A DNA stretch of 64,000 nucleotides, from positions 1-64,000 of the forward strand of contig JAKSYS010000157.1 in assembly GCA_022925895.1 (NCBI GenBank), in the 5' to 3' direction. How positions within the stretch are numbered: the first letter of the stretch is position 1; each line of letters opens with the position of its first letter. Of the stretch, positions 2,232 to 48,903 are shown in pieces. The notes under the pieces are model-generated. The model did no database searches. It was not told the origin of the DNA and saw only the letters and a program-made list of their open reading frames with translations. The stretch is from Fragilaria crotonensis. Its lineage: Eukaryota; Bacillariophyta; Fragilariophyceae; Fragilariales; Fragilariaceae. The translations under genes were made by a program, and so were the position numbers.

Positions 2232-2914
2232 CGATGTGGGTGGCTCAGCAGGTCGTCACAATCTACAGCGACGTTACAACTATGTAAGCCAGCAAGTAGA
2301 TGGTGTGCCACTTCCAAGGGAAAGGCTCCATCAGCACATTGAGTTGATAGGCCTTACCAGACCAACACCACAACCCAATCGACGCCGTGGCACGTGATTA
2401 GAGACGTATGATTTTAGAATGTGACAATTACTCCTACTAGTAGTCCGTGTTGAGATTCTCTTCCTCTAATTCACGAATCTCATCCTCCAAAAGCAACCCT
2501 TCCCTCCTGTAAAACTCCGCCTTTCGACGACTTGAAGGATCTGTTGCACCTTCTGCCTCGGCAGTAAGCCTTCGATACTTTTCCACGGTACCTGGTATGC
2601 GAAACGGGGATCACCTGCGCAAGAGGATACTTGTACGAGCACGAGCGAAAGGAGTGTGCAGGAAGAATCCTGTGGATTCTTGGTGGGAGGAAACGTGTTG
2701 AAGAGATTTGTTCTCAGGATCCAAGCAAAATGAGTGGTGTAGAGGTAACTTGGATTTCCACTTGGATTCGAACTTGGATAAACACCTTTCGTCAGGGTCG
2801 ATCCAAACCTTGACGAAGAACGAGTCCCACCACACTCGGAAATCGAAGTTAAAGGGCCCTAAGTCACGAGTAACTTGGAGTTTTGGGGTTGGAAACTTGG
2901 AAATTAGTAGTGAA

Positions 2915-2934
2915 AAATTAACTATGGACAGGCC
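2915..2934 (-). repeat. Right terminal inverted repeat of the Harbinger element
   Basis: 20 bp, the exact inverse of 739-758; followed by CTA at 2935-2937, the second copy of the target duplication. Confidence 0.93.
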
Positions 2935-2937
2935 CTA

Positions 2938-22783: not shown

Positions 22784-23695
22784 GCACAGAGAGGATTATC
22801 CTGCATTGGAGTACTGGAGTATTAACCAATACTATTGGGCCAGGCCGGGACAGTGAGCGGCGTTGGAAGCGAGGAGGTTCATTGTATTCTTAGAATTAGG
22901 AAGGGTTCTATTTACTAGAAACAGTTGAGAGCAAACTGCATCCATTTATCTTCCTCCGCATCTACTATTGTTGCCCTTTGTTCGTGTCCTACGTCCTACA
23001 AAGACATACTCCAGTGCTGAGAATAGAGCACAACTATACGATAGCACTAACATGCTCCCGTATGCGTACTCCTCGCGTGTAGTCGGTGGAAATACCAAAT
23101 ACCAACACGTTTCTACTTGTACTGTGGTGACTGTGCTATTGTTGAGGCGAGAGACGAGCTCAGCTGGTGAAGCTCGCGGCTCGCGGCAGACAGAAAAGGA
23201 CCTCGTTGACAGCTCATTAGAGAGAGAATTGGCGTTGGAATTGACTTTCCAGCAATCTGCAAAATGTGAAAACCTTTGCTCTCATTACACGATGACGTTA
23301 CAGTATCATATCTGAACAAGGAACCTATGGACTAACAGTGAGTGAACCAAGTCGTTGCTAGTCAGTATTGTTTTTAAATTTCAATCGACCGCAGTCTTCT
23401 TCTGCCTTGGAATGTAACTCAAAATGAATTTGACTGTATAAAGCTGGAGAAGGAAAAAGTGTGGCGGAAGCAACGTTGGAACAAACGATTGGAATGTGTG
23501 GAACCATTGTACTGCGACCATCACGTGCTGTTCCAGTAACCACATGGGGCAAGAGAACCAATTCACACATTTGTGTGTGCGTGTGTGCGTGCTCTCTTTT
23601 ATCTTGACCATTGCACACACCAATATACAAAATGGATAGGCGCATTCATGTATTCAACATTTCGAACAATTGAACCATTCCCAAAACGCGGGTTT
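22784..23695. other. Intergenic region; start of the duplicated block near 23370
   Basis: 3' flank of hemA and of the first PT gene, which converge here. From about 23370 the sequence (AATTTCAATCGACC onward) resembles 28131-28390, the 3' flank of the second PT gene. A GTGTGTGCGTGTGTGCGTGC tract lies at about 23573. No gene. Confidence 0.6.
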
Positions 23696-26503
23696 TCAGT
23701 ACGGGTTGGTCGGTGTTTGGGCTGGATTACAATCTGGCGCGTGCGTCGGAGGTTTATCCAACTGGGGCGATGTTGGAGGAGCCGTGGGAGTTCTTGTCGG
23801 CCGTACTGTTGGTGAAACGGTGGGTCTAGGGGTTGGAGGCGAAGTTGGAGCTGAGATTGGCTTGGTTGTTGGTGCTTTGGTCGGGGAAGAAGTCGGTTGG
23901 CAATCTGGCACGTGCGTCGGAGGTTTATCCAACTGGGGCGACGTTGGAGGAGCCGTGGGAGTTCTTGTCGGCCGTACTGTCGGTGAAACAATTGGTCGAG
24001 AGGTTGGAGTCGACGTAGGCGTTGCAGTCGGAGGAGCTGTTGGTTTTTTTGTCGGGGGAGAAGTCGGGAAAGTGGTGGGCTTTGAAGAGGGCTTGGCGGT
24101 TGCTTTGGAAGTAGGCGCTGACGTTGGTCGCGGGGATGGAGGTGCAGTAGGCTTACCAGTCGGGAGAGCTGTTGGTGTTTTCGTCGGGGGAGAAGTCGGA
24201 AAAGTGGTGGGCTTTGAAGAAGGCTTGGCAGTTGCTTTGGAGGTAGGCGCTGACGTTGGTCTCGGGGTTGGAGGTGCAGTAGGCTTAACAGTCGGGGGAG
24301 CTGTTGGTGCTTTGGTTGGAGGAGAAGTCGGATTACAGTCAGGCGAGTGCGTCGGTGTGACATCCAACTGGGGCGACGTTGGAGGAGCAGTGGGAGTTCT
24401 TGTCGGTCGTACTGTTGGTGAAACAGTGGGACTGGGGGTTGGAACCGAAGTAGGAACTGACGTAGGCTTAACAGTCGGGGGAGCTGTTGGTGCTTTGGTT
24501 GGTGCAGTCGTCGGGAAATTGGTAGGCTTTGAAGAAGGCTTGGCGGTTGCTTTGTAAGTCGGTGCTTGACTAGGAGGAGAGGTCGGTGAAGGCGTAGGCG
24601 CTGGCGTTGATCTCGGGGTTGGAGGTGCAGTAGGCTTACCAGTCGGGGGAGCTGTTGGTGCTTTGGTTGGTGCAGACGTCGGGAAAGTGGTAGGTTTTGA
24701 AGATGGCTTGGCGGTTGCTTTGTAAGTCGGTGCTTGACTTGGAGGAGAGGTCGGAGAAGGCGTAGGCGCTGGCGTTGGTCTCGGGGTTGGAGGTACAGTA
24801 GGCTTAACAGCAGTCGGTGGAGGTGTTGGCTTTTTTGTTGGAGGAGAAGTCGGGAAAGTGGTAGGCGTTGAAGAAGGCTTTGTGGTTGCTTTGTAAGTCG
24901 GTGCTTGACTAGGAGGAGAGGTCGGTGAAGGCGTAGGCGTTGGCGTTGGTCTCGGGGTTGGAGGTGCAGTAGGCTTACCACTCGGTGGAGCTGTTGGTTT
25001 TTTGGTTGGAGGAGAAGTCGGGAAAGTGGTAGGCGTTGAAGAAGGCTTTGTGGTTGCTTTGTAAGTCGGTGCTTGGGTAGGAGGAGAAGTCGGAGAAGGC
25101 GTAGGCGCTGGCGTTGGTCTCGGGGTTGGAGGTGTTGTAGGCTTACCACTCGGTGGAGCTGTTGGTTTTTTGGTTGGAGGAGAAGTCGGGAAAGTGGTAG
25201 GCGTTGAAGAAGGCTTCGCGGTTGCTTTGTAAGTCGGTGCTTGGGTAGGAGGAGAAGTCGGAGAAGGCGTAGGCGCTGGCGTTGGTCTCGGGGTTGGAGG
25301 TGTTGTAGGCTTACCACTCGGTGGAGCTGTTGGTTTTTTGGTTGGAGGAGAAGTCGGGAAAGTGGTAGGGGTTAGAGAAGGCTTTCTGGTCGGCTGGACA
25401 GTTGGCAAGGCAGTTGGTCGGGGACTATCATTCGATCCATTTGTGGTCGGGGATGGTGGTGGGTCATAAATTGTAGGTGTTTGGACCGGCTTACAATCTG
25501 GGGCATGCGTCGGAAGTATATCCAACTGAGGTGAAGTCGGAGGACTAGTTGGAGTGCTTGTAGGCTGAATTGTTGGAAGTGGGGTTGGTGAATCGGTCGG
25601 CTCGGAAGTAGGTCTTGGGGTTGGTGGTGCAGTAGGTGTCACTGTTGGTAGAGCAGTTGGTTCTTTCGTTGGAGACGAAGTTGGTGATGCTGTTGGCCTA
25701 GTCGTGGGCATCGCTGTTGGAGCAGAAGTTGGTGTGCTGGTTGGCTGAGAGGTTGGAATAGCGGTTGGCACTGATGTAGGTGTTTTGGTTGGAGAAGAAG
25801 TTGGAGCTTTCGTTGGATTAGCAGTAGGCGTGTCCGTTGGAGCAACTGTCGGTTTCTTCGTAGGGAGTGAGGTTGGTGAATCGGAAGGCTGTGAAGTAGG
25901 TCTTGGGGTTGGTGGGCCAGTAGGTGCCGCTGTTGGTGAAGCAGTTGGTGCTTTCGTTGGGGGAGACGTTGGTGATGCGGTTGGTTCTTTCGTTGGTGAT
26001 GCTGTTGGTCTAGAGGTGGGCGTCGCTGTTGGGGTAAAAGTCGGTGTGCTGGTTGGCTGAGAGGTTGGAACAGCGGTTGGCACTACTGTAGGCGTTTTGG
26101 TCGGGGAAGCAGTGGGTACTTGTGTGGGAGAAAAGGTTGGAATTGCGGTAGGGGATGAAGTAGGCCTTGGGGTCGGAGGAGCAGTAGGCGAGTCAGTTGG
26201 TCGAGGGGTGGGAGGAGCCGTTGGTGCAGCAGTCGGAGAGGCAGTTGGATCATTTGTTGGGCTGTTGGATGGAGCGACACTCAAACTGGGAGTGTCAGTT
26301 GGTGACTCGGATGGTGCATGACTTGTAGTTGGATTGTTGGTTGGATCGACCGATGGCCCAACACTCAAGGTTGGAGATTCACTGGGAGAGGAGCTTCCCG
26401 AAGGATTGTTCGTCGGATAGTCTGGACGAGGCTGTCTGGCGTCGACCACATCTGAGAATGTTGCTACCACAACGGCAAAAGTTGCAGCGACGAGCAATCT
26501 CAT
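23696..26503 (-). CDS. Secreted proline/threonine-rich repeat protein 1
   Basis: 935 residues from the ATG at 26503. The N-terminus [22 protein letters not shown] is a signal peptide, followed by [20 protein letters not shown]. Nearly all the rest is tandem PTxxPT-type units (for example [29 protein letters not shown]). Interspersed are modules of the form TSPQLDxxPTHxPDCxP, which carry the mature protein's only cysteines; the protein ends in one (PDCNPAQTPTNPY). Such proteins are probably extended, heavily O-glycosylated cell-surface or extracellular molecules (inference). It is paralogous to the 2516-codon protein at 28391-35941: near-identical N-termini and similar ends. The antisense strand is also open over long stretches, a by-product of the codon composition. 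No intron is visible. Confidence 0.85.
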   Translation of the reverse strand: MRLLVAATFAVVVATFSDVVDARQPRPDYPTNNPSGSSSPSESPTLSVGPSVDPTNNPTTSHAPSESPTDTPSLSVAPSNSPTNDPTASPTAAPTAPPTPRPTDSPTAPPTPRPTSSPTAIPTFSPTQVPTASPTKTPTVVPTAVPTSQPTSTPTFTPTATPTSRPTASPTKEPTASPTSPPTKAPTASPTAAPTGPPTPRPTSQPSDSPTSLPTKKPTVAPTDTPTANPTKAPTSSPTKTPTSVPTAIPTSQPTSTPTSAPTAMPTTRPTASPTSSPTKEPTALPTVTPTAPPTPRPTSEPTDSPTPLPTIQPTSTPTSPPTSPQLDILPTHAPDCKPVQTPTIYDPPPSPTTNGSNDSPRPTALPTVQPTRKPSLTPTTFPTSPPTKKPTAPPSGKPTTPPTPRPTPAPTPSPTSPPTQAPTYKATAKPSSTPTTFPTSPPTKKPTAPPSGKPTTPPTPRPTPAPTPSPTSPPTQAPTYKATTKPSSTPTTFPTSPPTKKPTAPPSGKPTAPPTPRPTPTPTPSPTSPPSQAPTYKATTKPSSTPTTFPTSPPTKKPTPPPTAVKPTVPPTPRPTPAPTPSPTSPPSQAPTYKATAKPSSKPTTFPTSAPTKAPTAPPTGKPTAPPTPRSTPAPTPSPTSPPSQAPTYKATAKPSSKPTNFPTTAPTKAPTAPPTVKPTSVPTSVPTPSPTVSPTVRPTRTPTAPPTSPQLDVTPTHSPDCNPTSPPTKAPTAPPTVKPTAPPTPRPTSAPTSKATAKPSSKPTTFPTSPPTKTPTALPTGKPTAPPSPRPTSAPTSKATAKPSSKPTTFPTSPPTKKPTAPPTATPTSTPTSRPIVSPTVRPTRTPTAPPTSPQLDKPPTHVPDCQPTSSPTKAPTTKPISAPTSPPTPRPTVSPTVRPTRTPTAPPTSPQLDKPPTHAPDCNPAQTPTNPY

Positions 26504-27537
26504 TAGACGGTTTTCTTCTTAGAGGAGATGATGGGTGGGTTGTTCGAAGCTTGACTGTTGAAGATAATGATACCAGAATTGATGAGAGTGACGGACTAGC
26601 TGCGACTTGGATTTCCGGTTAACGCGACTTGATTTCGCGTGCTGAATTCGATCCTAGGAAGGACGTTTTATTTTGATTCACGATGTTCCTTTTCCGATCT
26701 CGGTAGGTAAGAAAACGTCAAGAATTAAGCTTGGAAGGTACTTGGAGTATCTGAAAGGGATCGTAGCCTTTTCTGAATGTATTGCATCGGGTGTGGTGTC
26801 TCTGAAAAGGTCCAAATATTCGTGCCAAGCACGTTTTAGTGCATACAATGCTTGAGAATGTGTTTAGTGGGCTTCTCGATAAAGACATATCGGGTGACTG
26901 CAAAGAATACGTTACAAATACAAGACGAGCAAAGAAAATGTGAAGATTCTGCACAGACTTCCCCCCTCGTTTCAACAACTAGCAAGTTTGTTTAATGACC
27001 AAGCCTCTATTTTCTGGCACTTTAGACATCAGGCAATTCTGTATTACGTTCGTGTGTTTGCAACGATTCATGTCGCGTTTACACACGCTTGTCGCGTTTA
27101 TGCACTCCATTCCTTTTTTATCCTGTTCATCGTCTTCGGTAGAGTTTGGTATCGCATAATCCACTGTAGTACCAGTACTACGGTACTTCAGTATCTACTA
27201 TACTCCCAGTAGCGGGTACAAGTAGCGAGTCCTGCGTATGAATAAAGCGAAGATAGGACATGCGTTCGAAGTTCGAACGAATGCAAACTAACGGATCCTG
27301 AACATCGTGGTGGCGAACTGGACCCACGGTCCAAGGCTCGCTCGTAGCCCCCGCGTACGAGATTTCCACCCTCAAGTGGATGAAAGCGATCTGCTGTCTA
27401 AACTGGGAACCCGAAAGTTAGGTGATTATGAGACCAGCGCAGTGTGTGGCAGGGCGCCCTACAGTATCAAGTGGCTTGATCCCTCTTCATCATTGATGGC
27501 GTACAGCTCTCGCAATTGTCTTCCCACGAGACTCGAA
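26504..27537. other. 5' flank of PT gene 1, homologous to 35942-37004
   Basis: The first ~70 bp upstream of the ATG matches the leader of PT gene 2 (CGGTTTTCTTCT, GAAGATAATG, CAGAATTGATG), so promoter and 5' UTR were duplicated with the gene. Further out, ATTGATGGCGTA and GAGACTCG are shared just before the ABC stub. No gene. Confidence 0.65.
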
Positions 27538-27710
27538 TGATCTGGTCATGTCACTCAACGCTGCATCACGTTCTTCGCCGGTGGGATTGACCCGGAGAAT
27601 ATGTCATTTGCTCCGATAGGGTTGTTGGCGGTCGGTTGTCGACCTCTCATCCCTGATACATCACCACGACGGCGTCATAGTCATGATCGTGTTTAGTCGA
27701 TGAGTGACGG
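27538..27710 (-). pseudogene. Decayed 3' fragment of the ABCC transporter gene
   Basis: A duplicated remnant of the last ~58 codons of the ABC transporter gene (intact version 37005-37183). Its minus-strand translation reads VTHRLNTIM, then diverges over DYDTVVVMDKGRAVEYGPP, then matches again in NPTGEERDAALSDM-RS against NATGEESAAALSDMARS. It has internal stops and at least one frame change and lacks everything upstream of the H-loop segment (AHRLNT), so it cannot encode a transporter. It marks the right-hand breakpoint of the segmental duplication. Confidence 0.85.
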
Positions 27711-28390
27711 TCAGCATACTCCACTACTACAGTCGCATATAACCATAATCAGAAATCAGAGCTACATTCTCAAATGTAAGCGACCTTACCCTTCAGTGAG
27801 AGCTGAAGGCAGAAGTGAAGTTTTTTTGTAAACACGACACTCGATATGAACCGCCTGCAAGATGAGCACTGCTGTTTCACACGGTACCTGGTACTACCGT
27901 ATTATGTATTCGACGACTCCAGTACTACTAGTACCGGTAGTATTACCTCCCGCACTGTTGCAACGCGAGACGCGAGACGCGAGATATATGACGACGTGAC
28001 ACAGAATCGATGGCGGCTTGTGATATCGTTTTGGAGAGTTATGTTGGCATTCCGCAGCCTTTGTGCGCTGAGACGATGAAGCTTTTTTTAGTGAGCGAAC
28101 GACGTCGTTATTTACTTAGTATTTATCCATGAATTTCAATCGACCTAAATTAAAATGACTTCATCATGAAGGAGCAGTGTAGCGAGAGCAACACCGGAAA
28201 CAAAAGATGGAATGGATTTGAATGTGTGGAATGGTATTGTAACGTCAAGCCTTCGGGAATCCAAATCGGGCAAGAGACCGAACAAAATTGGCTCTCCATC
28301 TCGACCATCACGCACTTTGTGAAAAATGTGAAAATGCATTCATTTACATACAGTGCTCCAACGTATTGCCGAATTCATAAATGCAGGTTT
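27711..28390. other. Spacer between the duplicated blocks and 3' flank of PT gene 2
   Basis: 27711-28130 has no counterpart near the transporter gene; it contains GTAC-rich sequence (about 27880-27945, including AGTACCGGTAGT). From about 28131 to 28390 it matches the 3' flank of PT gene 1. No gene. Confidence 0.55.
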
Positions 28391-31300
28391 TCAATACGGG
28401 ATGGTCGGTGTGTGGGCCGGTTTACATTGTGGCACATTCGTCGGTGGTTTATCCAACTGGGGAGACGTTGGAGGAGCAGTGGGGATATTTGGACTTTGAA
28501 CTGTTGGTTTTTTGGAAGGCCTACGGGTTGGGGCTTTGGAAGGCAACGGGGTAGGCTTGGCTGTTGGGGGAGCAGTTGGGGCTTTGGATGGACGAGTGGT
28601 TGGAATTGCGGTTGGGGATGAAGTTGGTCTTGGGGTTGGAGGGCGCGTACGCTTGGCGGTTGGAGAAACAGTTGGCAAGGGGGAAGGTCTTGGACTGTCG
28701 TTCGATCCATTATTGGTTGGGGACGGTTGCGGGTCATTCGCCGTCGGTGTTTCGACCGGTTTGCAATCTGGCGAGTGAGCTGGGGAAGCTGTCGGCGCTT
28801 TATCCAATGGAGACGGCGGTAAGGTGGTTGGCTTTGACGAAGGCTTCGGGGTTCCTTTTCCTTTGGGAGTCGGCGATTTCTTCGACGGAGCTGAAGTTGG
28901 TCTCGGCGTGGGTGGAGCCGAAGGCACTGCGGCTGGGGAAGCCGACGGCGCCTTATCAAGTGGAGAAGGCGGTAACGTGGTGGGCTTTGACGAAGGCTTC
29001 GGGGTTCCCTTTCCTTTGGGAGTCGGCGAATTCTTCGATGGAGCTGAAGTTGGTCTCGGCGTGGGTGGAGCCGAAGGCACTGCGGCTGGGGAAGCTGACG
29101 GTGCTTTATCCAATGGAAACGGTGGTAAGGTGGTGGGCTTTGACGAAGGCTTCGGGGTTCCTTTTCCTTTGGGAGTCGGCGATTTCTTCGACGGAGCTGA
29201 AGTTGGTCTCGGCGTTGGAGCTACAAATGGCGTTGCATTCGGGGAAGCTGTCGGCGCTTTATCCAATGGAGACGGCGGTATGGTGGTTGGCTTTGACGAA
29301 GGCTTCGGGGTTCCTTTTCCTTTTGGAGTCGGCGGTTTCTTCGACGGAGCTGAAGTTGGTCTCGGCGTCGGAGGAGCCGAAGGCACTGCGGCTGGGGAAG
29401 CTGACGGCGCCTTATCAAGTGGAGAAGGGGGTAACGTAGTGGGCTTTGACGAAGGCTTCGGGGTTCCCTTTCCTTTTGGAGTCGGCGATTTCTTCGACGG
29501 AGCTGAAGTTGGTCTCGGCGTCGGAGGAGCCGAAGGCACTGCGGCTGGGGAAGCTGACGGCGCCTTATCAAGTGGAGAAGGGGGTAACGTAGTGGGCTTT
29601 GACGAAGGCTTCGGGGTTCCCTTTCCTTTTGGAGTCGGCGATTTCTTCGACGGAGCTGAAGTTGGTCTCGGCGTTGGAGCTACAAATGGCGTTGCGTTCG
29701 GGGAAGCTGTCGGCACTTTATCCAATGGAGACGGCGGTAACGTGGTAGGCTTTGACGAAGGCTTCGGGGTTCCTTTTCCTTTTGGAGTCGGCGATTTCTT
29801 CGACGGAGCTGAAGTTGGTCTCGGCGATGGAGCTACAAATGGCGTTGCGTTCGGGGAAGCAGTCGGCGCTTTATCCAATGGAGACGGCGGTAAGGTGGTT
29901 GGCTTTGACGATGGCTTCGGTGTTCCTTTTCCTTTGGGAGTCGGCGATTTCTTCGACGGAACTGAAGTTGGTCTCGGCGTCGGAGGAGCCGAAGGCACTG
30001 CGGCTGGGGAAGCTGACGGCGCTTTATCAAGTGGAGACGGCGGTGACGTGGTAGGCTTTGACGAAGGCTTCGGGGTTCCTTTTCCTTTGGGAGTCGGCGA
30101 TTTCTTCGACGGAGCTGAAGTTGGTCTCGGCGTTGGAGCTACAAATGGCGTTGCATTCGGGGAAGCTGTCGGCGCTTTATCCAATGGAGACGGCGGTATG
30201 GTGGTTGGCTTTGACGAAGGCTTCGGGGTTCCTTTTCCTTTGGGAGTCGGCGATTTCTTCGACGGAGCTGAAGTTGGTCTCGGCGTGGGTTGAGCCGAAG
30301 GCACTGCGGCTGGGAAAGCTGACGGTGCTTTATCCAATGGAAACGGTGGTAAGGTGGTGGGCTTTGACGAAGGCTTCGGGGTTCCTTTTCCTTTGGGAGT
30401 CGGCGAATTCTTCGATGGAGCTGAAGTTGGTCTCGGCGTGGGTGGAGCCGAAGGCACTGCGGCTGGGAAAGCTGACGGTGCTTTATCCAATGGAAACGGT
30501 GGTAAGGTGGTGGGCTTTGACGAAGGCTTCGGGGTTCCTTTTCCTTTTGGAGTCGGCGATTTCTTCGACGGAACTGAAGTTGGTCTCGGCGTGGGTGGAG
30601 CCGAAGGCACTGCGGCTGGGAAAGCTGACGGCGCTTTATCCAATGGAGAAGGCGGTAACGTAGTGGGCTTTGAAGAAGGCTTCGGGGTTCCTTCTCCTTT
30701 TGGAGTCGGCGATTTCTTCGACGGAGCTGAAGTTGGTCTCGGCGTTGGAGCTACAAATGGCGTTGCGTTCGGGGAAGCTGACGGCGCCTTATCAAGTGGA
30801 GAAGGATGTAACGTAGTGGGCTTTGACGAAGGCTTCGGGGTTCCTTTTCCTTTTGGAGTCGGCGATTTCTTCGACGGAGCTGAAGTTGGTCTCGGCGATG
30901 GAGCTACAAATGGCGTTGCGTTCGGGGAAGCAGTCGGCGCTTTATCCAATGGAGACGGCGGTAAGGTGGTTGGCTTTGACGATGGCTTCGGTGTTCCTTT
31001 TCCTTTGGGAGTCGGCGATTTCTTCGACGGAACTGAAGTTGGTCTCGGCGTCGGAGGAGCCGAAGGCACTGCGGCTGGGGAAGCTGACGGCGCTTTATCA
31101 AGTGGAGACGGCGGAGACGTGGTAGGCTTTGACGAAGGCTTCGGGGTTCCTTTTCCTTTTGGAGTCGGCGATTTCTTCGACGGAGCTGAAGTTGGTCTCG
31201 GCGATGGAGCTACAAATGGCGTTGCGTTCGGGGAAGCAGTCGGCGCTTTATCCAATGGAGACGGCGGTAAGGTGGTTGGCTTTGACGAAGGCTTCGGTGT

Positions 31301-34300
31301 TCCTTTTCCTTTGGGAGTCGGCGGTTTCTTCGACGGAACTGAAGTTGGTCTCGGCGTCGGAGGAGCCGAAGGCACTGCGGCTGGGGAAGCTGACGGCGCT
31401 TTATCAAGTGGAGACGGCGGTGACGTGGTAGGCTTTGACGAAGGCTTCGGGGTTCCTTTTCCTTTTGGAGTCGGCGATTTCTTCGACGGAACTGAAATTG
31501 GTCTCGGCGTTGGTGGAGCCGAAGGCACGGCGGCTGGGGAAGCTGACGGCGCTTTATCAAGTGGAGAAGGCGGTAACGTGGTAGGCATTGACGAAGGCTT
31601 CGCGGTTCCTTTGGAATTCGGTGCTGGCGTAGACGACGCTGGAAAAGCAGTTGGCGATGATGCGGTTGGCTTCGTAGATGGCTTTGCGGTTTCGTTGGCA
31701 GTCGGACCTCCGTTTGATGGAGTTGTTGGAGGTGACGTTGGTCTCGGCGTTGGAGGTGCGGTTGGCGATACTGTCGGTGCTTTATCGAGTGGAGAAGGCG
31801 GAGAAGTGGTTGGTTTGGAAGTGGGCTTCGCGGTTCCTTTGGAATTCGGTGCTGGCGTAGAAGCTGGAGAAGCAGTTGGCGATGCCGCGGTTGGCTTGGT
31901 AGATGGCATCGCGGTGTCTTTGGAATTCGGTGCTGGCGTAGAAGGAGACGTTGGAGGAGCAGTTGGCGATGATGCGGTTGGCTTCGTAGACGGCTTCGTG
32001 GTTCCACTGGAATTCGGTGCTCCAGTAGTATTGGATCCCGGAGAAGCAGTCGGACTTGACGCCGCAGGCTTTGACGTTGGAGAAGCTGTGGTTAGTGTAG
32101 CTGGTGAAGAAGTCGTTGGCTTGGTCGAAGGCTTCACGGTTCCACTGGAGTTCGGTGCGCCAGTAGTAGTGGATCCCGGAGAAGCAGTCGGACCTGACGC
32201 GGCAGGCTTTGCGGTCGGGGAACCTGTCGGTGTTTTGTCGAAAGGGGAAGGCGGAGAAGTCGTCGGCTTGGCAGTTCCGTTGGAATTCGGTCCTCCGTTT
32301 GGCGGAGCTGTAGGAGCTGAAGTTGGTCTCGGCGTCGGAGGCGCGGTTGGCTTTGCGGCTGGAGAAGCTGTTTGGGCGCTTGCCGGAGAAGTTGTCTGTG
32401 AAGTGGGTGGCTTCGTAAATGGCTTCGCAGTTCCATTGGAATTCGGCGCTGACGAAGGAGTAGATCCCGGAGAAGCAGTCGGACCTGACGCGGCAGGCTT
32501 TGCGGTTGGAGATGTTGTTGGTACTGAGGTTGGTGAGGCTGTCTGTGACGTCGTTGGCTTCGTAGACGGCTTCGCGGTTCCACTGGAATTCGGTGCTCCA
32601 GTAGTAGTGGATCCCGGAGAAGCAGTCGGACTTGACGCCGCAGGCTTTGACGTTGGAGAAGCTGTGGTTAGTGTAGCTGGTGAAGAAGTCGTTGGCTTGG
32701 TCGAAGGCTTCGCGGTTCCACTGGAGTTCGGTGCTTGGCTGGAAGGAGTTGTCGGATTCACTGCTGGCGATGATGTTGGTCGCGGCGTTGGAGGTGCGAT
32801 TGGCTTCGCGGCTGGGGAAGCTGTTTGTGCGTTTGCCGGAGAAGCGGTTTGCGAAGTGGATGGCTTCGTTGAAGGCTTCGCGGTTCCACTGGTATTCGGT
32901 GCTCCAGTAGAAGTAGATCCCGGAGAAGCAGTCGGGCCTGACGCGGCAGGCTTGGCCGTTGGAGAAGCGGTTGTTACTGTGGCTGGTGAAGATGTCGTTG
33001 GCTTCGTTGAAGGCTTCGCGGTTCCACTGGAATTCGGTGCTCCCGTCGTGGTAGATCCCGGAGAAGCGGTCGGACCTGACGCGGCAGGCTTGGCGGTCGG
33101 GGAACCTGTCGGTGTTTTATCGAAAGGGGAAGGCGGAGAAGTCGTCGGCTTTGAAGACGGCTTCGCAGTTCCGTTGGCATTCGGTCCTCCGTTTGACGGA
33201 GCTGCAGGAGCTGAAGTCGGTCTCGGCGTCGGGGGCGCGGTTGGCTTCGCGGCTGGGGAAGCCGTTTGTGCGTTTGCCGGTGAAGCGGTTTGCGAAGTGG
33301 ATGGCTTCGTTGAAGGCTTCGCGGTTCCACTGGTATTCGGTGCTCCAGTAGAAGTAGATCCCGGAGAAGCAGTCGGGCCTGACGCGGCAGGCTTGGCCGT
33401 TGGAGAAGCGGTTGTTACTGTGGCTGGTGAAGATGTCGTTGGCTTCGTTGAAGGCTTCGCGGTTCCACTGGAATTCGGTGCTCCCGTCGTGGTAGATCCC
33501 GGAGAAGCGGTCGGACCTGACGCGGCAGGCTTGGCGGTCGGGGAACCTGTCGGTGTTTTATCGAAAGGGGAAGGCGGAGAAGTCGTCGGCATTGAAGACG
33601 GCTTCGCAGTTCCGTTGGCATTCGGTCCTCCGTTTGACGGAGCTGTAGGAGCTGATGTCGGTCTCGGCGTCGGGGGCGCGGTTGGCTTCGCGGCTGGGGA
33701 AGCCGTTTGTGCGTTTGCCGGTGAAGCGGTTTGCAAAGTGGATGGCTTCGTTGAAGGCTTCGCGGTTCCACTGGTATTCGGTGCTCCAGTAGAAGTAGAT
33801 CCCGGAGAAGCAGTCGGGCCTGACGCGGCAGGCTTCGCCGTTGGAGAAGCGGTTGTTACTGTGGCTGGTGAAGATGTCGTTGGCTTCGTTGAAGGCTTCG
33901 CGGTTCCACTGGAATTCGGTGCTCCCGTAATGGTAGATCCCGGAGAAGCGGTCGGACCTGACGCGGCAGGCTTGGCGGTCGGGGAACCTGTCGGTGTTTT
34001 ATCGAAAGGGGAAGGCGGAGAAGTCGTCGGCTTTGAAGACGGCTTCGCAGTTCCGTTGGCATTCGGTCCTCCGTTTGACGGAGCTGTAGGAGCTGAAGTC
34101 GGTCTCGGCGTCGGGGGCGCGGTTGGCTTCGCGGCTGGGGAAGCTGTTTGTGCGTTTGCCGGAGAAGCGGTTTGCGAAGTGGATGGCTTCGTTGAAGGCT
34201 TCGCGGTTCCACTGGAATTCGGTGCTCCAGTAGAAGTAGATCCCGGAGAAGCAGTCGGGCCTGACGCGGCAGGCTTGGCCGTTGGAGAAGCGGTTGTTAC

Positions 34301-35941
34301 TGTGGCTGGTGAAGATGTCGTTGGCTTCGTTGAAGGCTTCGCGGTTCCACTGGAATTAGGTGCTCCCGTCGTGGTAGATCCCGGAGAAGCGGTCGGACCT
34401 GACGCGGCAGGCTTGGCGGTCGGGGAACCTGTCGGTGTTTTATCGAAAGGGGAAGGCGGAGAAGTCGTCGGCTTTGAAGACGGCTTTGCGGTTCCACTGG
34501 AGTTCGGTGCTGGCGTGGAAGGAGACGTTGGAGACACAGCTGGCGATGAAGTCGGACGCGGCGTTGGAGGGGCTGTAGGCTTCGCGGCTGGAGAAGCTGT
34601 CGGTGCTTTGGTTGGAGTCGCAGTCTGAGAAGTCGTTGGCGAAAACGAAGGCTTCGCGGTTGCCCCGGGAGTCGTTGTCTTCGTTGGAGGTGATGTTTGC
34701 GGAGCGGTTGGCGCTGATGTTGGCTTCACGTTGGGCGGAGCAGTTGGCAACGCAGTGGGTTTTGGACTCGTGTTGGATCCATCTTTGGTTGGGGATGCTG
34801 ACGAGTCCATTACGGTCGGTGTTTGAGATGGCTTACAATCTGGCATGTGTGCTGGAGGTGTATCGAACTGGGGCGACGTTGGAGCTACAGTGGGAGTACT
34901 AGTCGGCCCAGCTGTTGGTGACACAGTGGGTCTCGGGCTTGGAGGAGCAGTCGGCGAATCCGTTGGACGCGGAGTTGGTGGAGTGGTTGGCTTGGAAGAA
35001 GGCTTTGCCGTCGCGGAGGGATCCGGTGCTTGGGAAGAAAGAGCATTAGGGAGGCTAGTCGGTTTTGTGCTCTCACCTGATCCATCCTTAGCTGGATTTT
35101 GGGATGGTTTACACTCTGGCACATGCGTCGGAAGTATATCTAACTGCGGCGAAGTCGGAGGAGCAGTAGGAACGCTTGTCGGCTGACCTGTTGGTGTACC
35201 TGAAGGCCTAGGGCTTGGAGCTGCCGTAGGCTGTGTGGTTGGGGGAGGAGTTGGTACTCCGGTGGGAGGTGAGGTTGGAAAAATGGTAGGCTTTCCGGTC
35301 GGCGAGGCAGTTGGAGCGCTGGTAGGAGGAGAGGTTGGTGATGTGGTGGGTTGAGAGGTTGGTGTCGCTGTTGGAGGAGACGTTGGTGCGTTGGTAGGAC
35401 CAGCGGTTGGAACTGATGTAGGTGTTTTAGTTGGAGCTTTCGTTGGATTAACAGTAGGCGTGTCGGTTGGAGCAACAGTCGGTTTCTCCGTAGGGAGAGA
35501 TGTTGGTGAATCGGTTGGGGCTGAAGAAGGTCTTGGGGTTGGTGAGGCTGTTGGTGCCGCTGTTGGTGAAGCAGTCGGTACGTTCGTTGGGGGAGACGTT
35601 GGTGATGCGGTAGGGTTAGAGGTGGGCGTCGCCGTTGGGGTAGAAGTTGGAACAGCGGTTGGCATTGATGTAGGCGCTGTGGTCGGGGAAGCAGTGGGTA
35701 CCTGTGTGGGGGAAAAGGTTGGAGTTGCGGTAGGGGATGAAGTAGGCCTTGGGGTCGGAGGAGCAGTTGGACTGTTGGTTGGATTAGCCGATGGTCCAAC
35801 ACTCAAGGTTGGAGATTCACTGGGAGAGGAACTTCCCGAAGGATTGCTCGTCGGAAAGTCTGGACGAGGCTGCCTCGCTTCGACTTCATCTAGGAAAGTT
35901 GCTACCACAACCGCAAAAGCTGCGGCGACGAGAAATCTCAT
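28391..35941 (-). CDS. Giant secreted proline/threonine-rich repeat protein 2
   Basis: 2516 residues from the ATG at 35941. The signal peptide is [22 protein letters not shown], then [20 protein letters not shown] as in protein 1. Three zones follow: (i) PTxxPT units like protein 1; (ii) a Ser/Gly/Asn zone with repeated PNSSGT and PNANGT, which contain N-glycosylation sequons, organised in 147-residue units; (iii) eighteen 51-residue Lys-rich units ([37 protein letters not shown]). It ends [26 protein letters not shown] cell-wall, mucilage or adhesive role is plausible. The Lys/Ser-rich units recall silica-associated proteins in composition only, with no shared signature. No intron is seen in 7.5 kb; frame integrity across so many repeats argues for selection. 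Confidence 0.85.
28800..31590 (-). repeat. 153-bp tandem repeat array, ~18 units, inside PT gene 2
   Basis: The plus-strand landmark GGAGTCGGCGATTTCTTCGA recurs at multiples of 153 bp (for example about 28866, 29172, 29478, 29631). Each unit encodes 51 residues. Two subtypes alternate: one with [16 protein letters not shown], the other with [16 protein letters not shown]. The mixed order suggests repeated unequal exchange rather than a single amplification. Confidence 0.85.
32500..34500 (-). repeat. 441-bp higher-order repeat array inside PT gene 2
   Basis: Units recur every 441 bp (equivalent points at 32974, 33415, 33856 and 34297), with a more diverged unit on the low-coordinate side. Each encodes 147 residues containing [20 protein letters not shown], two versions of [19 protein letters not shown], and [13 protein letters not shown]. 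Neighbouring units differ by a few substitutions only. Confidence 0.8.
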
Positions 35942-36992
35942 TATACGGTTTTCTTCTCAGAGATGATGGATTTGTTGTTCCAAGTCTGACTGTGGAAGAT
36001 AATGGTAACAGAATTGATGGAGAGTGGAGGCAACAGATTGTTGGTCGGATCTTTTGGTAATTATGCTACGTCTTTCGTAGAGTGCATTTGTCCATATCGG
36101 ACATTTTACAATTTGATTCACGATGTTCCTTTTCCGATCTTGGCAGTTAAGTAGACATTCGAGAATTCAGCTTAGAAGGTAATCGGAGTTTCTGAATGGG
36201 TCCTTTTTCTTTCGATTGAACGTCGTATCATAGATACTTCATTGGGCATGGACTCTTCGAAGGGTCCGATTATTTCAGCTAAGCATTTTTTGTGCATAGG
36301 ATCTTTGATTACGTGTTTCGAGTTTGTCTCGTCATCGACATACGAGTGTTCTTCTCCACCAACGGCTGCAAGGAACACATTTCGGATGCGTCACTCGCGT
36401 TTGAAAAATTATTCCAGACGAGCTTCCACTATAAATCAACTAAGTACCCAGTTCGTATATCGACCCAGTAGTTCATTTTCTGGCACTTCAGACAATTTCC
36501 GTATGATGATAGTATGTGACCGAATCCATGTCTCTGAACAAAAATACTTCTCGCGTCTATTCAGACCATGCTGTTGCCTATTGCCTATGTTGCGAACTCT
36601 ATTCGACGTCACTTGTTTTTGTCCCTTGGGAGTTTGCAGTGTCGCAATCCCTCTCTTTAATTAAATGCACGACAGAGTAAGAAATGAAGTTCAAACGAAT
36701 CCAAACGAATCCCGACCATCATGGCCATGGCAATGCTTGGACCCAAGGTCTCCCTCGAACACAACTCCCGGCACACTCACCTTGATGATAGCGATCCGTG
36801 TCTAAATCTGAAATTCATCTGATGCATATACGTATGCGACCAGTAAAATTGCCAAGGACCCTATGCTATCAAGCCTATCGATGGCTAGAGTCATAATTGA
36901 TGGCGTATATACAGCACTCTCAACCGTGAGACTCGTCAAATTTTTCTAGTCTAGTAAAGACTTTATGGAAGTCTCTCAATTCTATCTCAAGT
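35942..36992. other. Intergenic region between PT gene 2 and the ABC transporter gene
   Basis: Promoter and leader of PT gene 2, and 3' flank of the transporter gene. The first part matches 26504 onward. A plus-strand frame at 36242-36664 has no homologous open frame in the duplicated copy and is not credited. Confidence 0.55.
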
Positions 36993-39900
36993 CTAAGATT
37001 GAGCTGATCTAGCCATGTCGCTCAACGCTGCAGCACTTTCTTCGCCAGTGGCATTGACCAACTCGGCGAATATACCATTTTGCTCCAATAATGTGGATGG
37101 CGGTCCGTATTCGACCGCTCGTCCCTTGTCCATCACAACGACAGTGTCATAGTCCATGATTGTGTTGAGTCGATGAGCGACAGTTAGCAGAGTTGTATCC
37201 TTGAATCGAGTACGCAGCATACGTTGGATAAAGGCATCGGTCTCGCCGTCCACAGATGCCGTCGCTTCGTCCATGATCAATATTTTTGGTTTGGCGAGCA
37301 GTGCTCGCGCCAAGCATAAGAGTTGACGTTCGCCCACACTGAAATTGGAGCCACCCTCCTCAACGACGGCTTCCAATACTTTTTGGGGATCTCCTGACGA
37401 ACCACGCAACCTCACAGCCTGGAGTACCTCAAGAATCGCGTCATCTTTGGCCTGACCGAAAGGATCGATGCATTCTCGGAGGGTACCTGGAAACAGAAAT
37501 GGGTCTTGTGGGATAATTCCCAGACGAGAGCGAAGATCTGCCAGACCAATCTTGGACACATCCACACCATCAATCACAATCCTACCGGATTCCACCTCGA
37601 CCAATCGGAATAACGCAACCGTCAAAGTACTCTTCCCAGCTCCCGTTCGTCCCACAACACCACACCGCTTGCCCGGTTCCACACGGAAGGACAGTCCATC
37701 GAGAGCGAGAGGAAGTCCATCTCGGTATCGAATCGACACATTTTGGAATTCGAGTTCTCCCTTGTTTGGCCACGATGGAGATAAACCCACTGCGGGATCT
37801 GTCGTCATGGATGCTTCTTGTGGCAGTGATGCCATGGCATTCACTCTCTCGATGGACGTAATGGCAGCTTCTGCGTCACCAAAGTGATCAATCAAGAAAC
37901 CCAATGTAATTGTAAAGTTGGACGACCATATAATCAACAGGGCGACGATTCCTGCCGGCAGCTGAAGTACTCCATTCATGGTAATTACAAGCATGGTGGC
38001 GACCAGAGTGATGAGCGCACCCAAGACCTCGATTCTAACACCAAGCCAGCGTTGGGCGGATATAAAGTTGAGGACAGCGGATGAGTTAATGTCAGCGGCA
38101 GATTGGAACTTCTCCACGAAGAAACCACGTTTTCGAAAGACCTTGATCGTAGCAGATCCGTCAAGAGCCTCAGCCAGCATGGCCTGGATGGGAGATCTTG
38201 ATACAGCGTCAATTCGTTGCAAGTCAGCTCCTGATCTTCGATAGTGTAGAAGAAGGAACACATAGACAATCATGACGGGCACGAGAGCAACAAGCATGTA
38301 GGGGATGATGAGAACCATAATGATGACAGATGCAGTGAACCAACTTGACGCAATCATAAGGACAGACATTGCCTCCGTTAGTGTCAGATCAATCACTTCA
38401 GTGTCATACGTGAAGCGGTTGATGATCCGGCCCATGGGCGTGGTTTCAAAGTACTCCATCGGTGCACCCAACACTCGGTACAGCATGGCAAAGAAGACAT
38501 TCTTAGCACACCGAGCTCCACCGCTGACAGCCCACTGAGATCGGACAAATGTAGCAACAATCGAGACCAGTAAAATGAGGGCGTAAACTGCAATGTAACT
38601 GAACTGTGCTTCCCGGCCACTGGATTGTGCTTGAAACTCAACTCCAAACACTTGCTTGGGTTGGACGGCGGCTGAAGTCCAGAAAGCCAACCAGTATTCT
38701 GTCGCAACATAGAAGAAGCGATCAATACCCATGACCACTACTTGGATTGTAAAGAAAGGCAAGCCACCGGCATATTTGAACCACAGTGTCCACGTTCTCA
38801 AACTTGAAAGACCGTGCTCTCTGGATTCAACGGCAATGAGCTCCCCGTTCGCCTTTTCTGTCTCTTGCGTCAAAGAGGGTAATTCGACTTTTGCGGCATC
38901 GACAACTTTGGCATTGTAGTTACTTCCATTGCCATTCTCGTCGACACTTGTCTCTTGCACAGATGATCGAATCGCGTCAACCACCATGGCCGTGTTGTTG
39001 TCAGCTGAAGTAAAGTTGGCCAAGGCATTCCAAGAACCTTGGAACTTCATTTCACCGTCCACGATTAGCATCAAATTATCAACGCGATTCAAAAAGTGAG
39101 CTGCATGTGTCACCAACACAATCCCTGACGACGCCAATGGACTGTGAGGAGATTTGAAGAGTCGATCGAAAATCATCTTTCCAGTACCAGCATCCAATGC
39201 GGAAAGAGGATCATCAAAGAGGATCAGGTCGGGTTGCGCATAGGCAGCGCGTGCCAGTGACACACGCTGCTTTTGACCGCCCGAAAGTGTGACTCCACGT
39301 TCGCCGATTTCCGTTTGGTCGCCGGCGGCTCCGAGTTGTTGAATATCTGGTCGAAGACAGCATGCGTCGAGGACTTGTTCGTACAATTCATGATTGTAGT
39401 TTGAACCAAACAAAATGTTGTCTCGAAGTGTCGAGTTGAGTATAAAGGGAATCTGACTCGCATACGACATTCGCCCCGTATGCGTTGTCAAAGATCCAGA
39501 AACAAGTTCCGCTTCGCCAATGATTCCATTGATTAAGCTCGACTTTCCAGCACCTACTGGCCCCACAATCGCGAGTACCTGGCCGCGACGCAGTGTGCAA
39601 TTGATGCCAGATATGTGAAACGAATGTTGAGTGCCATTCTCCACATCACTGGACGATGCTGGTGCAGCACCAACACCAAAGCAAGCATCCTGGGTTTCAA
39701 GAAGGATCGAGTCCTTCTCGTCAATGTCTGGGTCACCAACGGGACCAATCTCTCCGTCTGACATTGCACGTCTCAAAAAGCTGTCGATACGCTTGGTGGC
39801 TTCCAAGGCTTGTCCGAGTTTCCCAATCAAACGTCCCACATAATTGATGGGAAAGCGGAGCGCTGCGAACAACAACAAGACAGTAAACGTCTTGGCTGGG

Positions 39901-41206
39901 GTCAAGATGTTGTTCTCATCCACCAAAACATATGTGACAAAGGTAGCGGCTGTCGCCAGCAATGGAGAGCACACGGTGAAGACAAGTGTCATGGCCCACA
40001 CAAAGAGCTCCCTGCGCAGCAATTTCAACTCTTTGGTTCTCGAGGATTCGATCCAATCTCGATATTTTCCTTCATAATTGTTCAATTTCGTTACCTTGAT
40101 GCCGTTGAGCATAGACTGCTGTGTTTCAATTCTAATGTCTGTAATCAACGCTCGTTGATGTCGTATTCTCCCCATGATCGATGCAATTGCCTTGACAATG
40201 GGAACAAAGATAAATAATATCAACATACCCACCAAAGTTGAGGGTCCCAAGACGACGAGCAAACATATTCCGACCAGGACCATACTCAAAGGACACGACC
40301 ATATCAAATGGCCTTCCATAAAGACTTCATATACCTTTTGAATGTCCACAGCGACCAGATTCGTGACTTGTCCGGAGGTAAGTCCTGCACGGCCGGCAGG
40401 CAAAAGCTGCAAGACTGCCTTATACACGACCGATACCACAGTGGCACGCACCACAATGCCGGCCTTGGTGGACAAATGTCGATGACGGTGGGTGGCAAAG
40501 CCATTCAGGACGGACGCGACGAAAATGAGAACAACGTACGGCAGTCCCTGTTGCACGACACTTTGATATGGATTTTGTTCTAAAATGGTGAGCAATTCTC
40601 GCACCAAGAGTGGGAGAGACACTTGAGCCAATACTGTAACGAGTTGGTTGACTCCGCCAGGAATGAAGTTGGGAGCTGCCAATTTCCAGAATGTCATTAG
40701 TAATCTGTGTTTGGAGTTTTTGGTTTCTTCGTAGTACTTGCTGAGGATGAGAATGACAAAGATGACAACGACGAGTGTGAGCGCATAGGTCTTCCTGGTG
40801 TACGACGTACATACGAGTAGGTCATCCCATGAGCCATGACGGGATAAACTTACTCGAAAAGAGAAACGAGATGGTGTGACTCCATCGATGGAGGAATAAA
40901 GTACAAGTCATCCTGAGTCAGATAGGTTCCATTGTTTTCGCTTTTCACTTCTTGCTTTGCCCCAATGCTTAGCACTCGATTCATGTAGGAGTAGGTGAAA
41001 CGTTGATACCATGCACATAGGAAGGATTGACCAGGACTGCGATGGTCTTCGGGCCATGGCAACATCACCATGTTACGAGTTCGACTCGTACTCAACCCTT
41101 TCATATCATCATCATCATCTTTGGCAGCTGCATCTGTAGCACCATTCGTAGAAGCATTCGATTGTCCCTGTTGCGATGACGACGGTGGACAAGTCATCTC
41201 GCACAT
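36993..41206 (-). CDS. ABCC (MRP)-type ABC transporter, two exons
   Basis: Exon 1 is 40854-41206 and exon 2 is 36993-40740. The 113-bp intron 40741-40853 (GTAAGT..CCTCAG, phase 2) joins SLF-D-KYYEETKNSKH in frame, giving 1366 residues. It is a full ABC exporter without an extra N-terminal membrane domain. Exon 1 carries the cytosolic lead-in (FTYSYMNRVLSIGAK, LTQDDLYFIP) typical of ABCC. TMD1 is followed by NBD1 (Walker A GPVGAGKSS near residue 511, signature LSGGQKQRVSLARA, Walker B LILFDDPLSALD). TMD2 is followed by NBD2 (GRTGAGKST near 1147, VGERQLLCLARAL, ILIMDEATASVD, H-loop AHRLNT). Such pumps export organic anions or glutathione conjugates across vacuolar or plasma membranes; the substrate here is unknown. 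Its 3' end is duplicated as a pseudogene at 27538-27710. Confidence 0.92.
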
Positions 41207-44200
41207 GATGCAACGTTTTGAGTGGGATGTGCGATTGTTGTGGTCACAGTCACAAAAAGGTTAATGGCCCCGTACCAATCGGGTTTTTTTTAAATGGTGT
41301 ACTACCGGTAGTGTATGTAAAGGATTTGGTCGCGTAAATCGTGGCAATGGCAATGCGGTTTCATGAAAGAATGTGATGTGTTTTATGACGTACTCGGAGG
41401 ACGTGTATTTGGACGGACACCAGTTGTACACAAGTCTCACGTACACTTGAACGATTACACATGCTACTGCTACCGGTTCAGTACTGTACGTACTAGACTC
41501 CTACGCATTCCTACTGGCACAATTCGTAGACGAGTCACGACGTAATCACGACTGAGAGCTGCATTCTGGAACGACGTCGAACGGAATCTGGGGTTCTGCA
41601 GAATCCAACAGTTAAAAGACATAGAGGATGCGGTTGTAATACAGATGAACTTGGAATTCGAAAGAACAGCAATAAAGACCGGACTTCGAGAAGCCGGCAG
41701 GATTACTCGGAGTACAGTATTGTTGTTGGAAAAATCCATAACATACACCATACTCCGAGTACACTGTTATTTATTCAACGTCACCGGGGTTTGTAGGAGT
41801 GTTATTGCCTAGTATGAGGTGCTGGTACCGGCGGGTATGCCCATAATTACAACTCCAGTCACTTGGAAGCTTGATGCCGAGGCATCTGACACGGAGGCAT
41901 CATTACCAGTTAGTATGGGCACTTCAGTAGATGCCTCAACTTGTAAAACATCTCATCCCTCTACCACCGTGGCTTATTCCACCGAGAGATTTTTCTCCCC
42001 TTGTTGACTAGCACAGAATATGAAAAGATGCAGCATATTCACATCAAGCAAGTCAAGCACCAATGGCAAGGCAACTTAGTGACTCTTGTAAACAGAAACC
42101 TTGTATCCAAGTTTTGGATGGACCTCAGCAGGTAAGTGGAATCATTTTCTGTCGTAAGGAGGACAATCTCCAGCAGAAGAAGCGAGGTATGTTAGGTGGA
42201 GATGTAAAGCCGTTTCTCAGAAGTATATACAGCAGAGAATATACTCCTGTTGCTGCAATGATACAGTGCATGATGTCATGTGCCACCAATGACAGCCTTA
42301 GAAAGATTTCACCCTTCTTTGCACCTCACCCATTGTTCCCACTTTCTTCATCATCTAGCTTCTGATTGATGCATGGTGAACATGGACGTCGACAATCACT
42401 CATCACGAGAAAAATGCACCGAGAGCCAGGAATTCAATCTTTCCAATGAGATCATGATTAGAAGTGCTGTTGCCTTTGGCAACAATATGGTAAGGCTGAT
42501 GCAAGTTGCATGTAGTGTTTAGTAGCTAGTGATATCAAGGTTTATAATCATTGTTAATAGGATTGACAGTATTCCTTGGAGTTGGAGATTGAAGGCCTTT
42601 TCTGCAAAGTCGTTACTCACAAACTCTACAATTGATCCAAAGGGTGATGGCCAGGACATGCTGTTGATGAGTCAGGAGTTGGTGATCTGAACCAGGTAAT
42701 TCCTCAATCATTTATTGCGCTGTGATAGTAATCCTGGTGCTTGTTTCTATTGCTTGTGACAATAGATACTGGCTGATGTATGTTCACATTGATAATGTGC
42801 CTGGCTACCAGCACAAGAGGAAGAAGCAAGAAGATCTGTAGGTGCCTTTGGCTTCCTCTTGATCGGAATTGAACGCATTCAAAACGCCTTTAGGAATCAC
42901 CATATTGACATTTGTGTTGTCAATAAGAACATTGTTAACAGTTGAATCCCTAGAGGTGAGTCAGCACACGGCTGTCAACCACATGTGTGACGGATGGAGT
43001 CTCACAAGAAGCATAGAGACGAGGTTGTTTGCTTTGAGGTCACTTCTGGATAGAGCTACTATTCATGAATCACCGTGTGGACCATGCATCTCCTGTTTTG
43101 TGTAGTTGTGAAGGTTTCAAGAAAAGGCATTCGGAAGTGGAACTTGTCGGTTTCGTCATTAGCTGATGGGCTGTTGGTCATGACTTCATCATATGGGAAG
43201 TTTGCTGATGTAAAGGGAGGAATGGGATAAAAAATCAAAGTTGATCTCGTCACTCCAGACAGACAATGTTTAGATTGCATAAACTGTTGCTGATGGTATC
43301 CATTCAAGTGGAATCTGTTGCATGCATTGACATGACTCTGGATTCTGATGCCATCAACGATGGAGATGGAGATTTGTTGCTTTAGGCTGTGCTCCGTGTG
43401 CTGTTCAGTTGATTCCTGAACTGCCCTTGGAATTGCAGTGCGTGTCCCTAATCCCAGGGTTGAATCCGCCACCTTCAACCAACTCAACCAGAATGTCATC
43501 ATGGAAGTTGGAAGTTCTCTGGTCTAGCATCGTCTTTGTGTTGTCCAAGTTCCTCTTTCCTGACCCTCGCTCAAACACCGAGCAATGCATTCCGACTGGG
43601 TGGGAGAAGACTTAATGTTTAATCTGAGTGCCAACTCTTCGTAACAGCATTCCCCCGACAGGATGTCATTGCGCCTCCAGGACATACCGTCACAAAACTC
43701 TGCCACAATACTAACAACTACTAACAGGCTCCAGCCACGTATGAATCCTCTCGCATGCATATTCGTACAGTACCAAATACCAGTATAGTAATGCAGTACT
43801 GGTACGCTGCATGCACACATGCTCATAGGATATGACCAGTACCAGGTATGACGTATGTAGTAGAAGAAGCAACGAGACAACGAGACGCAACGTGTATATG
43901 CGTATCTGCGCATATGCGCACCTTGTCATAACAGTACTACTACCTGGTACCTGGTACTCGGAATACATACTCTACAACGAGTACACTCCGACTGCCTGGT
44001 ACACGTAGTACTATAGTACTGGTACGAGTGTACTACGCGTTTTTTCCAGCAGGCGCGGATTCTACTCTAGCGAAGGCTTGTGACGAGTGACAAGTGACGA
44101 AAGAATACAGAATGCATGCACACATAGATTTGGAATGCGGTTGTCTCCGTCATTATTCTTGGAACCATGTCTACCTGGCGACTCTGTTGTTTGCTGTTAT

Positions 44201-48604: not shown

Positions 48605-48824
48605 ATACTTGGGTCCTGATGTCCATCGAGTTGGTGCCGGAGATGAGATCCAGCACGGAGCAGCTTACCAGACGCAGATCATCTTGCATTAGAACAACTC
48701 TTCTCTGCTAAACTATACTTGGGTCCTGATGTCCATCGAGTTGGTGCCGGAGATGAGATCCAGCACGGAGCAGCTTACCAGACGCAGATCATCTTGCATT
48801 AGAACAACTCTTCTCTGCTAAACT
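48605..48824. repeat. Identical 110-bp direct tandem duplication
   Basis: 48605-48714 and 48715-48824 are the same sequence, both starting ATACTTGGGTCCTGATGTCC and ending TTCTCTGCTAAACT, with no difference that I can find. It lies about 80 bp beyond the stop of the thioredoxin-domain gene, so it may fall in its 3' UTR or terminator region. Confidence 0.9.
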
Positions 48825-48903
48825 ACGTGCAGGCAAATGCTGTCGGGCAGCGCTACGAAAAAAATAAATCAACTAAACGGTCCAACCCAGTTAATAACTT
48901 GTT

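Follow-up and report, generated by a model that had tools for sequence, protein, structure and literature searches.

The locus carries two adjacent PT-repeat genes that most likely descend from one ancestral unit, which also included the 3' end of the neighbouring ABC transporter gene. As a whole, the history is very probably a tandem duplication of this unit, decay of the copied ABC end into a stub, retention of both PT genes in frame, and a later appearance of the ABC-PT pair on a second contig, C34. The window analysed here is a stretch of 64,000 bases (bases 1-64000 of the 103,021-base contig C67), and genome searches were run over the 62.1-Mb assembly of 881 contigs.

The locus starts on the left with a glutamyl-tRNA reductase (GluTR) gene on the + strand, followed by four elements on the - strand, namely PT gene A, the stub, PT gene B and the ABC transporter gene. 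The GluTR gene contains Pfam GlutR domains and is convergent to the PT genes. An open frame at 21013 sits just upstream of the GluTR frame, in a different frame, and its SSHA-F start resembles the plastid-targeting signals of algae with red secondary plastids. Together with the PT genes, this start points to a diatom genome. The ABC gene (36993-40697, - strand) has an intact frame and matches PF00005 and PF00664 in two stretches each. It thus possesses two ATPase and two membrane domains, an organisation typical of ABCC transporters. Elsewhere in the window, at 48605-48825, a 110-bp unit stands twice in tandem with 100% matches; this duplication is probably very recent.

Two colinear copies of one unit

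PT gene A (23696-26503, - strand) and PT gene B (28391-35941, - strand) are open frames of 935 and 2516 amino acids that share flanks on both sides. Their 5' flanks are colinear, 26504-27534 at PT gene A and 35942-36992 at PT gene B (both - strand), the latter lying between PT gene B and the ABC gene. In a blastn comparison of the flanks, the 5' sides form one colinear match from 26483-27716 to 35921-37189 (61%, E 5e-77) that runs through the stub. The 3' sides match in two places, 23449-23760 with 28168-28455 (E 8e-22) and 23337-23390 with 28090-28145 (E 2e-5).

Each segment was also scored against 200 single-base shuffles. The three pieces of the 5' flank, 26504-26760, 26761-27250 and 27255-27515, have z scores of 20, 9.1 and 13.3, respectively. 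The stub (27540-27716) reaches 21.4, and the 3' flanks (23337-23695 and 28090-28390, both - strand) reach 13.7. The similarity of the 3' flanks begins at about 23337/28090; just before this left edge, 27790-28089 shows no homology to 23037-23336 (z -1.4 against shuffles). Just past the right edge at 27716/37189, homology is likewise absent by the same measure (z -0.3). Both edges are sharp, since the z score collapses outside the unit. The flanks of the two copies have diverged considerably, with K2P distances of 0.262, 0.461 and 0.306 for the three 5' pieces and 0.305 for the 3' flank.

Two adjacent copies in the same orientation with colinear non-coding flanks constitute a tandem segmental duplication. 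The colinearity and the sharp edges support the duplication of one ancestral unit, consisting of the ABC 3' end, intergenic DNA, a PT gene and its 3' flank. A reading made earlier from the sequence alone had proposed a tandem duplication of a PT gene with the ABC 3' end, and this is confirmed by flanks shared on both sides and by sharp ends. The co-linear similarity beyond the PT coding repeats that it expected is present, with an abrupt stop at 27716/37189.

The two copies do not join directly but are separated by a 373-bp interval (27717-28089). The last 300 bases of the interval have no counterpart in the 300 bases left of copy A (z -1.4), so a simple tandem junction is not preserved. Part of the interval is also present on C34, and it is therefore associated with PT gene B in both places. 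Filler sequence, a later insertion or a loss on the A side can each explain the missing junction. Alternatively, gene A could derive from a dispersed, non-tandem copying of the PT segment that landed by chance beside its source, as copies that do not abut and an ABC-PT pair on another contig might suggest. The shared orientation and the adjacency are most simply the product of a tandem event, however, and such a chance landing is quite improbable.

Dispersed repeats at both edges were considered as a cause of the tandem duplication and rejected. In a genome search that skips simple and very common words, the sole other reported match of 27700-28200 and 22790-23700 is on C34, and that match is a copy of the ABC-PT-B pair rather than a repeat family.

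Two sequence motifs occur in this region. A 26-bp block within the shared 5' flank is identical between the copies (26675-26700 and 36115-36140), in a flank that is otherwise diverged, and is a possible regulatory element. It is found at only two sites in the genome with up to three mismatches allowed; with just these two copies, a family-wide promoter element was rejected. The second motif, GTACTAC/GTAGTAC, occurs 19 times in the window, compared with a mean of 7.6 and a maximum of 14 in 100 single-base shuffles. GTAC-rich palindromic stretches lie beside gaps between the copies at 27160-27215 and 27882-27945. The occurrences are scattered, and an interpretation as insertion elements was discarded.

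The ABC stub and the polarity of the copies

The stub (27535-27716, - strand) is a decayed ABC 3' end. Its local alignment to the ABC frame contains gaps of 1, 1 and 4 bases and stops in all three frames, and a protein search scored it at 27529-27744 with two TGA and two TAG codons inside. The best match of the stub is the window's own ABC gene, with a local DNA score of 216 against at most 63 for 19 other ABC loci. These 20 ABC loci, the own gene included, were drawn from 30 places in the protein search, among which are the own gene and the stub itself. A better match at another ABC gene, which would have spoken against the earlier proposal, was thus sought among the 19 other loci and not found. 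With its best match in the adjacent ABC gene and a broken frame, the stub has the properties of a truncated pseudogene, and its derivation from the window's own ABC gene is supported by this comparison. The sequence-only reading had correctly recognised the decayed ABC end, although the similarity reaches 27716 rather than 27710 and the ABC frame ends at 36993.

The K2P distance between the stub and the ABC gene is 0.20, less than the 0.26-0.46 of the non-coding flanks, which is what constraint on the intact ABC side would produce. The differences are unevenly distributed over the codon positions (13/60, 4/59 and 14/60), with a deficit at the second position (p 0.011). This deficit may reflect constraint on the intact ABC side or a period in which the stub was still coding; the numbers are small, 31 differences in total. 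It is not predicted by a purely neutral stub alone and to that extent counts against the best explanation.

The same deficit hints at divergence under coding constraint, as would occur if the duplication had covered the whole ABC-PT pair and a later deletion had removed most of the additional ABC gene, with 27716 as the deletion edge. Deletions inside an ABC gene do occur, as the C34 copy shows, and the extra interval 27717-28089 would fit a more complex history. A comparison of the flanks at E values up to 10, however, gives no further ABC match in 27717-28390, and the constraint signal can stem from the intact ABC side alone. A duplication of the whole pair is unlikely, if the strongest of the alternatives in this analysis.

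In the preferred reading, a duplication of the ABC end with the PT gene, the ancestral locus would have contained the ABC gene followed by one PT-repeat gene on the - strand, adjoining the convergent GluTR gene. One breakpoint would lie inside the last ~65 ABC codons and the second one in the PT gene's 3' flank. As the colinearity and the sharp edges show, the tandem duplication created a second PT gene equipped with promoter-side DNA and a useless ABC tail, presumably through an exchange. This tail then decayed through substitutions and frameshifts.

In its surviving form, the copied unit ends within the ABC gene, as the stub demonstrates, and this polarises the ABC fragment. The stub does not indicate which PT gene is the original, because unequal crossing-over makes both genes products of one exchange. 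The claim that the pair of PT gene B and ABC is original and copy A the duplicate is therefore not supported. Such an exchange would leave the original GluTR-side flank with gene A and the original ABC-side flank with gene B.

PT proteins and selection

Both PT proteins consist mostly of PT repeats and start with a hydrophobic stretch that is signal-like as judged by eye. Because of these two features, they are most likely secreted, mucin-like proteins of the cell surface or of the wall or mucilage. PT gene A belongs to Pfam family PF04886 (E 7.7e-29; 99.4 bits, curated cut-off 26.2). PT gene B matches no Pfam family at E 0.01, PF04886 included, and is related to PT gene A by its termini and flanks only. 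Its interior contains two in-frame arrays, 18.5 copies of a 153-bp unit (28779-31612) and 5.7 copies of a 441-bp unit (31979-34495).

Each PT protein contains four cysteines, and all eight are located in a P-T/A-H/N-x-P-D/E/Q-C-x-P module, seven of them after SPQ-L/F-D. Such single-cysteine modules may serve as cross-link sites at intervals along a disordered chain. For the module at the C terminus, the 10 matches, close ones included, were found only at this locus (7) and on C34 (3), both counts being lower bounds. The paralogue C872b has a similar cysteine context.

Selection was assessed by comparing A with B in four segments. The dN/dS ratio is 0.32 over 56 N-terminal codons (bootstrap 0.13-0.80, p 0.014) and 0.41 over 38 C-terminal codons (bootstrap 0.18-1.01, p 0.043). 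The two middle segments show no significant departure, with ratios of 0.84 (p 1.0) and 0.56 (p 0.14). Gaps are far more frequent outside the genes: 55 are present in ~1 kb of 5' flank and 10 in the first ~1 kb of the PT genes. Gaps that are not multiples of three make up 4/10 in the genes and 40/55 in the flank, a difference that is not significant with the placement given by a DNA aligner (p 0.065).

The N terminus is conserved throughout the PT family. Among eight of the 11 N-terminal sequences that were aligned, 26 of the 28 pairs, which are non-independent, have p < 0.05; the two remaining pairs are near-identical. PT gene A matches paralogue C307a at 72% and PT gene B at 76% in this region, so the N-terminal dN/dS need not reflect the A-B pair in particular. 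The 5'-flank similarity of the C307 and C872 genes stops near 26595. By eye, at least two paralogues, C307a and C872a, contain stretches apparently read in another frame, which counts against selection. C307 and C872 carry two pairs of PT paralogues. Between these contigs, the N-terminal pieces hardly differ (synonymous divergence 0 to 0.02), and the pairs may represent haplotypes that the assembly did not merge. Two short open frames, C563:34112-34258 (99 aa) and C299:51954-52079 (53 aa), share an N-terminal part with the C488 PT paralogue and then diverge.

The PT genes might also have drifted without selection and be open merely since PT codons seldom give stops. Of all single-base changes, a share of 0.024 yields a stop in A, against 0.034 in B and 0.039 in the ABC gene, and one other frame of PT gene A contains just 7 stops in 934 codons. 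In neutral simulations with substitutions only, at K 0.185, the first 340 codons of A stayed open in 80 of 2000 runs and the first 275 codons of B in 150 of 2000. At full length, by contrast, A and B each remained open in 0 of 300 runs at K 0.185 (at K 0.1, A did so in 1 of 300), although much of the length is repeats that may be younger than the duplication. Together with the N-terminal dN/dS, the family-wide pairs and the scarcity of gaps in the genes, this makes drift without selection very doubtful.

In PT-coding sequence, a frame that stays open says little about selection by itself. The earlier argument, that a stub with stops beside open PT genes implies selection, was in this respect too strong, as the 80 open runs illustrate, but its conclusion receives moderate independent support from the dN/dS of two of the four segments, the marked scarcity of gaps in the genes relative to the flank and the cysteine modules. 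Weak to moderate purifying selection on both PT genes is supported, though not proven, by these comparisons. Under the proposed history, such selection would have kept both genes in frame while internal repeat turnover changed their lengths.

A third copy on contig C34 and comparison with known systems

A third copy of the ABC-PT-B pair, rearranged and less diverged, is found on C34 at 93001-103000 (L042), positions 1348-6203. It is homologous to about 27926-41281 of the window, with a weak extension to 27862, and lacks 35253-39933. Through this deletion of ~4.7 kb, about a fifth of the ABC gene, its first ~250 of 1234 codons, runs directly into PT-B sequence. The C34 copy is probably a pseudogene, because its ABC part differs from the window by a 5-base gap and its PT sequence is distributed over two open frames.

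The K2P distances between C34 and the window are 0.045 for the ABC part, 0.067 upstream of ABC and 0.086 for the 3' flank, far below those between the A and B flanks (0.26-0.46). The best PT pieces are 87-90% identical. As A and B are more diverged, their duplication would precede the split of C67 and C34, and the B-type pair would later have come to lie on C34 and been cut there by the internal deletion. C67 is inferred to be the source of the C34 pair since its genes are intact. The timing is a relative order without an absolute date, and the dated local history that had been claimed does not hold beyond this order.

The PT segment measures 3123 bases on C34 and 6862 in the window. Of the 153-bp unit, C34 carries 3.5 copies and PT gene B 18.5; the 441-bp array is absent from the repeats listed for C34, and a short 147-bp array is present instead. 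Either growth in B or shrinkage on C34 would account for the difference. No PT gene A is present in the 10 kb of C34 that were read, and the surroundings of copy A are absent there apart from similarity in the PT repeats and the 3' flank. An allelic relationship between C34 and C67 was rejected for this 10-kb stretch, whose outer flanks (below 1340 and above 6250 of L042) are unmatched in the window; at E 1e-3, they give a single weak row at 27903-27942, inside the known extension.

The ABC-PT pair might be a recurrently unstable unit, in which PT repeats and ABC breaks repeatedly seed duplications and deletions and sometimes join ABC membrane segments to PT sequence. This is a long shot; if true, it would offer a way for disordered, secreted repeat domains to be joined to membrane domains.

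At this locus, the decayed stub, the non-coding flanks and the two retained repeat genes share one age, and a less diverged third copy is available as well. It thus allows the evolution of a fast-changing repeat gene to be compared with that of its surroundings after duplication. The termini of a long PT gene can evidently be preserved even when array length varies several-fold from copy to copy.

Diatom PT-repeat proteins include those of Pfam family PT (PF04886) and the XPT/SX-repeat proteins of Thalassiosira pseudonana (PMC5501833). That source describes many gene products with silicon-dependent expression that carry PT repeats and whose function is little known. The proteins here resemble them in their numerous proline-threonine repeats, and gene A matches PF04886; PT gene B differs in that it gives no Pfam match at E 0.01. 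In a literature search, none of the listed titles or abstract openings described this locus.

The event itself is of an ordinary and common kind, a tandem duplication that has one of its breakpoints within a neighbouring gene, accompanied by repeat turnover. The locus resembles other such duplications in its colinear unit, its sharp edges and its decayed partial neighbour gene, and differs from the typical case in that the copies lie 373 bp apart. The less diverged copy on C34 is a new and useful addition to this picture.
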